Below are positions 46,175 to 49,533 of a stretch of 64,000 nucleotides of DNA, piece after piece. The translations under genes were made by a program, and so were the position numbers. This DNA is from Bdellovibrio sp. KM01 (GTDB lineage Bacteria; Bdellovibrionota; Bdellovibrionia; Bdellovibrionales; Bdellovibrionaceae), in contig NZ_CP058348.1 of NCBI RefSeq assembly GCF_013752535.1, forward strand, positions 3,596,001-3,660,000. Reading direction: 5' to 3'. The notes beneath the pieces are model-generated. The model made no database searches and had not been told where the DNA came from. It saw only the letters and a program-made list of their open reading frames with translations. Within the stretch, counting starts at the first letter, position 1. Every line of letters starts with the position of its first letter.

Positions 46175-47761
46175 ATGAACAAGTCCGCGTACGAGGCTCT
46201 TGTAAATTCCCATGCTCTGATTGAGTTCGATCCCCAAGGAAAAATTCTTTGGGCCAATCGCAACTTTCTGAATCTCGTGGGATATGAGCTGAACGAGATA
46301 CACGGGAAACATCACTCCATCTTTCTTCCTGCCTACGAACTTCACGAAAAAGAATACAGCGAATTGTGGGACACTTTGCGCGCGGGAAATCCCCAAGTGG
46401 GCGAGTTCAAACGCCTGGCCAAAAACGGTAGCGAAATCTGGGTTCATTGCTCTTACACGCCTGTTAAAAACGACAGCGGCGATGTGATCAAAATTCTTAG
46501 TATGGCCTTCGATATCACTGAAAAAAGAAATTTGGCTGAAAATCTGGAAAGAAAAAACCAGGAACTTTTGTCAACAGCCGCAAAAGCCCGTGCGGCGACT
46601 TATGCAAAGTCGGTGTTTCTGGCGAACATGAGCCATGAAATTCGTACGCCATTGAATTCAATCATCGGCATCACTGACACATTGGCGGAAACTCCCTTAG
46701 ACGGACAGCAAACTTCATTCGTTGAAATTCTGCAAAGAGCGAACTATCAGCTTATGACAATCATCAATGACGTTTTGGATTTATCCAAAGTGGAAGCAGG
46801 CGAAATCATTTTGCACATGCTGCCTTTCAGTCTGCAAAGAATGATCGAGGATATTTTATCGATCCTTGAATTCCGAGCGAAAGAAAAGGGATTGCAACTT
46901 AAAGTCTCCGTCGCACCCGAGGTTCAGGAATACTATATCGGAGATTCCGATCGTCTGCGCCAGGTGTTGATTAATCTTTTGAATAACGCGATCAAATTCA
47001 CCCATGCAGGTACGATCACCTTGAATATTTCGGTGAACAATACTCCGCGGTCGGGCAATTTATTATTTGCGGTTTCTGATACGGGCATTGGCGTATCGAA
47101 GCAAAAATTCAAAGACATCTTCCGTCCCTTTACTCAGGCGGATGCCACGACGACCCGTCGTTACGGCGGAACAGGTCTTGGACTTTCGATTTCCCAAAAA
47201 ATTGTCAGTCTTATGGGTGGAGTGATCTGGCTTGAAAGTGAACCGAACGTGGGAAGTACTTTTTATTTCACCGCTTCTATGCCAGCGACGACAGAGCGAA
47301 AAACCAGCATGCACAATCCTTTACAGGGACGCTATCAGCTGAATGACATCAATCACTTCATCGAAGACGAGCGACTGCGTGTCCTGGTGGTGGATGACGT
47401 TGATGACAATCGCAATCTTCTGGGAATTTATCTGCAAAAGACTGCTCATCACATCACCTATGCTGAAAGCGGCACCGAGGCAGTTTCACTGGTGGAAAAA
47501 GGTCCATTCGACGTGATCTTTATGGATGTGCAAATGCCAGGGATGGACGGACATGAGGCCACCATGCGCATTCGCGAAATCGAACGCGAACAAAACCGCC
47601 GGCCTGCACGCATCTTTGCCTGTACAGCCAACGCCTTTGCCGAAGACATCGAAAGAAGTATGAGTGCTGGTTGCGACATGCATCTTTCGAAACCAATCCG
47701 CAAAGACACGCTGATTAAAGCAATCAATTCCTGCTTTGCTATGACGGAAGCTGTTGGTTAA
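46175..47761 (+). CDS. Cytoplasmic hybrid sensor histidine kinase (PAS-HisKA-HATPase-REC)
   Basis: A 528-residue hybrid kinase without membrane segments. A PAS domain spans about 1-125 ([25 protein letters not shown]). The dimerisation helix follows with [16 protein letters not shown] and the phospho-accepting His154. The ATPase domain has [16 protein letters not shown] and [10 protein letters not shown] receiver domain from about 400 has [11 protein letters not shown] and the acceptor Asp451 in [12 protein letters not shown]. No histidine-phosphotransfer or output gene is adjacent. Its 3' end overlaps the convergent deaminase gene by 23 bases. Confidence 0.95.
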
Positions 47762-48569
47762 GGCCCAAGCGATCTAAAACTGTCTGCGAAGACAATCCAC
47801 CCGATTCTTCCACAGAATAATACACTTTTATATTCGCGGAATTTTCCATCCACTCATAAATCATTCCTGCGCACATCTTGCAGGGTTTATGCGTGCTGTA
47901 CAAAACAGAACCTGAGGGGATTTTACCACCATGTTCGCGGTAATATCTGTGAATCAAATTTACTTCCGCATGCAGAGTTTTATTTTTGGAGTTGGAATTC
48001 ACACCGTAACTTAAAACCTCTCCGTCTTTCGAAACCAAAAGGGCCGCAATATTGCGATCGTGATCGTGCAACACCTCCCCGCGAGGAACTTGCATAGAAA
48101 GAGCGTGGGCTGCCTTTAAAAACTCTTCATTGGTCGTTGCCTTTTCACTTCGCAACCACTCAGTTAGCTTTGCCAAAGACATTTTATTTTCTGCATTCAG
48201 ATGACTGACGTTACTTAGCGCCTCGGCTGCGGAATCTATCTGGATAAACTCCAGGGATTCTTGAAATTCTGAATCTCGCTCTGGAATGATGTCACCTGAC
48301 GCTCTTTTAGCGACGACTTTGATCATACCTTTACACATTTCTGATAACGGAGCGGTGGTGAAAATACGCTGGCGCAGAATAAAAAAGCTGTGATCGACGT
48401 GACGATCAAAAAGTCCCTGCAGTAATTTAACCACGGCAGATGAGGGCGCGATAGAAGCTTTGGGAAAATGGGAGTAATAGACTTTCCCTTTAAACTCTAC
48501 GAAAGCCACCTGGAAAGTGTCTTTATTGAGTAAAAATGCTAGGTGACGGGCTCTTTTTTCGGCGCTCAT
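47739..48569 (-). CDS. Bd3614-like deaminase (nucleic acid/nucleotide deaminase fold)
   Basis: A 276-residue protein. The C-terminal half is a zinc-dependent deaminase: LHAEVNLIH (His200, Glu202) and [16 protein letters not shown] (Cys230, Cys233), with [19 protein letters not shown] in front. The N-terminal half (about 1-150) is a separate domain, as in the Bdellovibrio Bd3614 family that I know as deaminase plus N-terminal domain; that match is from memory. The target could be a base in RNA or a nucleotide. It is divergent from an rRNA methyltransferase gene by 46 bases, and no ribosome site is visible for either. Confidence 0.78.
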
Positions 48570-48615
48570 TCAAGAATTGGTACCATATCAGATTATTTTT
48601 GTCTAAAACCGCCGT

Positions 48616-49533
48616 ATGCAGATGATCAAAAACCGCCTTGAAAAGAACTACAAGAAACTTAAATCCTGGGCTGAGCGCGCAGGTATTCAAGCGTATCGCC
48701 TTTATGATCGCGACATCCCGGAATATCCCTTCATCGTGGATATCTATGGAGAGCATTTTTTGATCTATGATAAAGGCGACAGCCGCGACATCGAAAAGAA
48801 CCATTTGCCTCACGTCGTTGAGGCACTGCAGGCACTTTTCAAAGCGGACGAGTCAAAAATCGTGATTAAAAAACGCGAACGCCAAGAGGGCCTTAAACAA
48901 TACGAAAAATTGGACCAAAAAGATCAAACATTCACGGTCAAAGAGTCCCAAGCGACTTTCAAAGTGAATCTTTATGACTATCTGGATACAGGATTGTTTT
49001 TAGATCACCGTCCAATGCGCCAAAAAATCTATAAAACCGTCAGCGGCAAAAAATTCTTGAATCTTTTCTGCTATACCGGCTCTGTCAGCGTTTTCGCGGC
49101 CTTGGCGGGAGCAAAAACCACTTCAGTCGATATGTCCCAGACTTATTTGGGATGGGCTCAAGAGAACTTCGCGCTTAATAATATCCCGTCCGACCAACAC
49201 AGCTTCATCAACGCCAACGTGCTCGAGTGGTTGGACCGAAACCAGGGAAAACCGGCTTTTGACGTGATTTTCCTGGATCCTCCGACTTTTTCGAACTCTA
49301 AAAAAATGACCGATAGCTTTGATGTCGAACGCGATCAGGAGCTGCTGGTGAACGAGTGTATGAGCATGCTGGAACCGGGCGGAGTTTTGTACTTCTCGAA
49401 CAATAAACGCAAGTTTCACCTGTCACCTGCAATTAAAGAGCAGTACAAGGTTCGCGACATCACCGAGGAAAGCATCCCACAGGATTTCCACGACAAGAAG
49501 ATCCACGTCTGCTTCGAAATCCGCGCACTTTAG
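48616..49533 (+). CDS. Stand-alone RlmK-type 23S rRNA methyltransferase
   Basis: A 305-residue SAM methyltransferase that matches the C-terminal RlmK half of E. coli RlmKL, which makes m7G2069 in 23S rRNA. Seen: NRLEKNYKKLKSWAERAGI and AYRLYDRDIPEYPF, KKRERQEGLKQYEKL, TGLFLDHRPMRQ, FLNLFCYTGSVSVFAALAGA, and DPPTFSNSKKM with the catalytic DPPTF. The RlmL half (THUMP and m2G domain) is missing. The start has no ribosome site, so the mRNA may be leaderless; a second ATG lies two codons later. Confidence 0.85.
   Translation: MQMIKNRLEKNYKKLKSWAERAGIQAYRLYDRDIPEYPFIVDIYGEHFLIYDKGDSRDIEKNHLPHVVEALQALFKADESKIVIKKRERQEGLKQYEKLDQKDQTFTVKESQATFKVNLYDYLDTGLFLDHRPMRQKIYKTVSGKKFLNLFCYTGSVSVFAALAGAKTTSVDMSQTYLGWAQENFALNNIPSDQHSFINANVLEWLDRNQGKPAFDVIFLDPPTFSNSKKMTDSFDVERDQELLVNECMSMLEPGGVLYFSNNKRKFHLSPAIKEQYKVRDITEESIPQDFHDKKIHVCFEIRAL

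Follow-up and report, generated by a model that had tools for sequence, protein, structure and literature searches.

In eukaryotes, tRNA A34 is deaminated by ADAT2/ADAT3, in which an active and an inactive subunit are combined. The 23S rRNA methyltransferase RlmKL (YcbY) of E. coli is a fused protein with an RlmK half, the m7G2069 methyltransferase, and an RlmL half. In Pfam, the families PF14439 (Bd3614-deam) and PF14442 (Bd3614_N), which take their name from a Bdellovibrio locus, describe the same two-domain protein as the deaminase considered here; no function is recorded for the Bd3614 family in the literature searched, to which the founding deaminase-family paper did not belong, our search found no papers naming Bd3614 or Bd3615, and the literature and database text searched give no fold for Bd3614_N. 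A dead-plus-live arrangement of deaminase domains that acts on free nucleotides has been described for human CDADC1, a (d)CTP deaminase (PMC12088426).

The DNA analyzed here, referred to as the window, is a stretch of 64,000 nucleotides from the genome of Bdellovibrio sp. KM01. It carries a deaminase gene and an rlmK-type methyltransferase gene in head-to-head orientation (Table 1), exactly at the positions, and with the 46-bp spacing, given in the first-pass annotation. The deaminase belongs to the already named Bd3614 family, and its N-terminal domain is given a structural reinterpretation here. At its 3′ end, the deaminase gene overlaps by 23 bp with a convergent histidine kinase gene (46175–47761), and downstream of rlmK lies a gene encoding a SpeD–SpeE fusion, that is, S-adenosylmethionine decarboxylase joined to spermidine synthase (49639–50937).

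Table 1. Features of the deaminase–rlmK locus (positions are those of the window)
Feature	Position	Strand	Basis
Bd3614-like tandem deaminase, 276 aa	47739..48569	-	PF14439, 148.5 bits; PF14442; AF2 model
N-terminal degenerate deaminase domain, residues 1–98	48276..48569	-	own fold, hhalign, residue conservation
C-terminal active-type deaminase domain, residues 141–276	47742..48149	-	VIA-align and HMM search
Zinc site His200-Ala201-Glu202 and Pro229-Cys230-x-x-Cys233	47871..47972	-	family conservation
Divergent intergenic region, 46 bp	48570..48615	.	sequence
Element TACCATA-N11-TTGTCTAAA	48581..48607	.	conservation; putative outward promoter elements TATGGTA (deaminase) and TTGTCTAAA (rlmK)
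Stand-alone RlmK-type 23S rRNA methyltransferase, 305 aa	48616..49533	+	RlmKL model, 420 bits

Residues 166–273 of the deaminase match PF14439 with 148.5 bits (cut-off 38.5), and His200, Ala201, Glu202, Cys230, and Cys233 are invariant in all 47 family members, which bears out the full zinc site (H200/E202/C230/C233) ascribed to the protein earlier. The full-length AF2 model, built from a shallow alignment of 8 sequences, has pLDDT 82.5 and pTM 0.80. According to VIA-align, the C-terminal domain resembles TadA, dCMP deaminase, RibD, and guanine deaminases with Z 12.3–14.6, RNA and nucleotide deaminases being tied within 1–2 Z; by sequence, in an HMM search against the PDB, TadA-type nucleoside deaminases come nearest, along with yeast cytosine deaminase. 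The TadA equivalog model NF008113 does not match the protein, and the anti-phage dCTP deaminase model NF041025 gives 23.5 bits, far below the threshold of 400 and over the zinc motif only.

Five proteins of the genome match PF00383, namely, a TadA–NUDIX fusion, a TadA/guanine-deaminase-like protein, Cdd, RibD, and the window deaminase. TadA is encoded by a separate gene (180.8 bits, cut-off 150); the 309-aa fusion protein (L002 901–1830, minus strand; C1:219442 in the genome itself) has same-size counterparts among the reading frames of nearly all genomes of the genus, and it turned out to be the second PF14439 match in the genome, so that a paralogue of the window deaminase was rejected. The TadA/guanine-deaminase-like protein (L225, C1:79812) reaches 84 bits against the TadA cut-off of 150.

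The first-pass annotation had also credited the deaminase with an N-terminal domain of its own and proposed a Pfam search for it. The domain does have a known family: the search, when run, gave PF14442 (Bd3614_N), which matches eight out of eight members scanned (best E 1.4e-6), the window protein itself being aligned to model positions 5–88 of 92 with 20.7 bits (cut-off 25) and E 5e-4. Four results agree in assigning a deaminase fold to this domain. The alignment of residues 1–110 with residues 140–276 by hhalign has a probability of 76%, with stretches of 12 and 17 residues paired, and its score of 33.7 compares with 11.9 ± 2.4 (maximum 27.3) in 200 column shuffles, none of which was as good (0/200). 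In the AF2 model, both halves of the protein follow the order helix-strand-strand-helix-strand-helix-strand, and the N-terminal half contains the α-β-β-α-β-α core of the deaminase superfamily. Residues 1–120 folded alone yield a model with pLDDT 80.5, for which the top VIA-align rows are deaminase-fold chains with Z 6.4–8.1 over residues 1–98, values below 8 not being decisive by themselves; the Foldseek matches of the same model are weak (E 0.076), and the top four are all deaminases.

As the fourth result, the zinc site of the N-terminal domain is degenerate throughout the family: His is replaced by Ser/Thr, Glu by Val/Ile, and the first Cys by Thr/Ser (Ser44, Val46, and Ser76 in the window protein), and the second Cys is retained in only 34 out of 47 members. 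Other positions are well kept, namely, Arg66 (46/47), Ala87 (45/47), Lys88 (45/47), and Arg89 (43/47), and the domain is basic, with pI 10.1 compared to 7.2 for the C-terminal domain. It is the agreement of these four results that identifies Bd3614_N as a degenerate deaminase domain and the whole protein as a dead and a live deaminase in tandem. This turns a nameless domain into a testable model, in which the enzyme carries its own inactive partner, of the kind known from ADAT3 and CDADC1.

Similar to ADAT2/ADAT3, the window deaminase combines one active and one inactive domain, the active one being of the TadA type, and ADAT2/3 chains are matched by its N-terminal domain alone with Z 7.3–7.5. 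The differences are that ADAT2 and ADAT3 are two chains, whereas both domains of the window protein reside in one; that the dead domain here lacks all zinc ligands except the variable Cys79; and that this genome already has TadA for the deamination of tRNA A34. The likeness to CDADC1 is limited in other respects, as the latter is built from DCTD-like domains, whereas the C-terminal domain of the window protein is nearer to TadA by sequence, and HAG, PCxxC, and zinc binding are retained in the N-terminal domain of CDADC1, whereas the dead domain of the window protein has neither the His nor PCxxC.

Over its whole length, the methyltransferase aligns with positions 396–702 of the 704 positions of the RlmKL model (420 bits) and contains the motif DPPTFSNSK; hence it is the RlmK half without the RlmL half, as had been noticed before, and stays below the threshold of 466 bits of the bifunctional RlmKL model NF008748, which spans both halves. 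The 305-aa protein covers the RlmK half of E. coli RlmKL but stands alone; since a separate RlmL-type gene (UPF0020, 177 bits) is present elsewhere in the genome, a stand-alone RlmK is ordinary. The motifs AGGA, GGAG, and GAGG are absent upstream of both the deaminase gene and rlmK, in agreement with the earlier remark that neither has a visible ribosome binding site. This is not unusual, as only 28 out of 65 predicted genes in the window are preceded by such a motif.

The gap between the two genes contains the element TACCATA-N11-TTGTCTAAA, which is perfect in 22 out of 23 genomes of the genus and in one genome of another genus (G035), has one mismatch in G018 and two in G032, and is lost further out. 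Its 11-bp spacer is constant in length and variable in letters. Upstream of rlmK genes that no deaminase adjoins (G013, G024, G043, and G105), the element is absent. The genome of KM01 has a single perfect copy, and a regulon sharing the element was rejected, given this one copy and the 18 copies with three mismatches compared to 53 in a reversed-pattern control. In most genomes 8 nt separate the end of TTGTCTAAA from the rlmK ATG; in the window, the distance between TATGGTA, which is read on the other strand, and the start codon of the deaminase gene is 11 nt. The rlmK leader is longer in several relatives, and in part of these it contains an AGGA motif (e.g., L009 and L014). No consensus sigma-70 promoter was seen in the 46-bp gap. 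From the sequence pattern we infer that TATGGTA and TTGTCTAAA are two outward −10 elements of overlapping divergent promoters; with such elements 8–11 nt from the start codons, the transcripts would be leaderless or nearly so. The earlier suggestion of leaderless expression from a shared promoter region stands to the extent that a conserved promoter-like region is present and is consistent with it. In G041 (L106, about 9.92–10.05 kb), the start codons of the deaminase gene and rlmK are apparently about 2 bp apart, and hence each promoter would lie inside the other gene.

According to the family search, the deaminase is present in 23 out of 24 genomes of the genus (in one of them only in part, at the end of a contig) and in eight other genera of the family. 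It is head-to-head with rlmK in all 23 carriers of the genus and in six of the eight other genera (G029, G032, G034, G035, G037, and G041), so that conserved synteny in relatives, the absence of which would have spoken against the proposal of the first-pass annotation, was found. In the maximum-likelihood tree of 47 deaminases, the bootstrap of which is not fully settled, the 28 paired rows fall within one 30-row clade (support 100/99), and the pairing label changes three times, compared to 15.0 in shuffles. This corresponds to a single gain of the head-to-head arrangement, in the ancestor of the deaminase clade of the family, followed by two losses (G031 and G043). Outside this clade (families f8, f10, f22, f25, f26, and f27), the deaminase never adjoins rlmK, and no constant partner was found for it outside the family, its neighbours varying by lineage.

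Such conservation may also be expected from mere neighbours, that is, from two genes without any physiological link, kept together as breaking up a divergent promoter comes at a cost and as regional order is retained; we regard this as plausible, though less likely than not. The region does have some ancient order, since the genes at 40.5–44.6 kb of the window remain near rlmK in G024, G032, and G043, and the gene for an M28 peptidase (55.8 kb) is found beside or near it in G032, G037, and G041; deaminases without the rlmK partner exist as well. However, the flanking junctions, used here as a local control for pair conservation, behave differently from the pair itself. Among the five distant genera with a conserved pair (G029, G032, G034, G037, and G041), none has kept the kinase–deaminase junction (0/5) and none the rlmK–SpeED junction (0/5), with SpeED being located elsewhere in G029 and G034. 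Besides, the control element has retained both its bases and its spacing, which is also at odds with mere neighbourhood. Thus, the deaminase–rlmK linkage partly exceeds regional order. Taken together, the conserved head-to-head synteny and the shared promoter-like region make it likely that the deaminase and rlmK are co-expressed.

The reading that we prefer, with a probability of about one half, is that of two separate, co-expressed enzymes with overlapping outward promoters, the deaminase being a dead-plus-live TadA-like enzyme with a likely RNA substrate. The overlapping promoters, packed into 46 bp, would express both genes together, and a polymerase bound to one of them would block the other. 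The live C-terminal domain would hydrolyze the amino group of adenine or cytosine by the usual Zn/Glu mechanism, and the basic, zinc-less N-terminal domain would act as an internal dimer partner that also clamps nucleic acid, a part played in trans for ADAT2 by the inactive ADAT3; with this role of the domain, and by analogy with ADAT2/ADAT3, the substrate is probably RNA, although the odds are about even. RlmK alone would make m7G in 23S rRNA, and its tie to the deaminase would be one of timing of expression and not of a shared catalytic unit. The conserved partner and promoter then suggest when the deaminase is likely made, namely, together with an rRNA methyltransferase. If the substrate is indeed RNA, a tractable predatory bacterium would have an editing enzyme.

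Free nucleotides are a possible substrate as well, and the main rival to RNA. In this case, the protein would be a nucleotide, nucleoside, or base deaminase involved in the salvage of, e.g., prey dCMP/dCTP or a modified base, its dead domain would be architectural, and the adjacency of rlmK incidental; we consider this explanation somewhat unlikely. Human CDADC1 has the same order of domains, an inactive N-terminal one followed by an active C-terminal one (PMC12088426), the best structural rows for the C-terminal domain include viral and human dCMP deaminases (Z 14.4–14.6), and the five proteins of the genome that match PF00383 include no evident dCMP deaminase. However, the HMM search against the PDB ranks TadA-type and cytosine deaminases first, with no dCMP deaminase at E 0.001, and, unlike a purely architectural domain, the N-terminal domain has a strong basic charge and retains Arg66 and the Ala-Lys-Arg stretch family-wide. 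A nucleotide substrate would explain a part of prey-nucleotide salvage.

The proposal of the first-pass annotation that the deaminase and RlmK form one RNA-modifying unit is not supported. In its specific form, an A-to-I or C-to-U change would be made by the deaminase in 23S rRNA close to G2069, in step with RlmK, which appears improbable, even though the head-to-head linkage is long conserved, the control element is common to both genes, and the basic domain is compatible with RNA. The two genes are separable in both directions: the deaminase does not adjoin rlmK in 19 of the 47 cases examined, and in G083 and G088 it is present with no strong rlmK match in the genome, while rlmK is common without the deaminase, occurring so in 23 further genomes of the family (E < 1e-50) and in one Bdellovibrio (G013) that has cleanly lost the deaminase. 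The pairing is confined to one family, and no fusion of the two enzymes was seen. In a comparison of nine carrier with eight non-carrier genomes of the family, no 23S position has a genomic A or C in the former and G or T in the latter, i.e., there is no edit-like contrast (A/G or C/T). A tRNA gap, or a tRNA with C8 that needs editing, was rejected too, as the 33 distinct tRNAs all have T8 and require nothing beyond TadA. These tRNA and 23S negatives are weak, because editing need not leave such marks. We would likewise put little weight on a single-chain ADAT2/ADAT3 analogue, made in step with RlmK from one overlapping divergent promoter, in which the basic N-terminal domain would present structured RNA (plausibly 23S rRNA or mRNA) and the TadA-like C-terminal domain would edit beyond tRNA A34.

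Finally, an effector that is secreted during predation and edits the nucleic acid of the prey is very improbable: although related families contain many toxic deaminases (PMC3482391) and the hosts are predators, the protein has no hydrophobic N-terminal signal, its first residues already belonging to the first helix of the domain in the AF2 model, there is no immunity-like neighbour and no phage match, and the deaminase also occurs in non-Bdellovibrio families of the phylum. A phage origin was rejected on the same lack of a phage match, and a defence system was rejected since PADLOC gives only cross-matches to the zinc motif and the methyltransferase.

Two observations on individual relatives may be added. 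In two order-level relatives (G088 and G097), the deaminase gene has a downstream neighbour of the same orientation that codes for a short protein matching only the asparaginase N-terminal domain (L109 7188–8546 and L110 8756–10074, both on the minus strand). In the complete genome of the Bdellovibrio G013 (L111 7449–10167), the deaminase gene is cleanly absent between the histidine kinase gene and rlmK, which makes it a natural deletion with neither the deaminase nor the conserved intergenic element; one Bdellovibrio without the gene, together with the conserved partner and promoter, provides a clean genetic handle.
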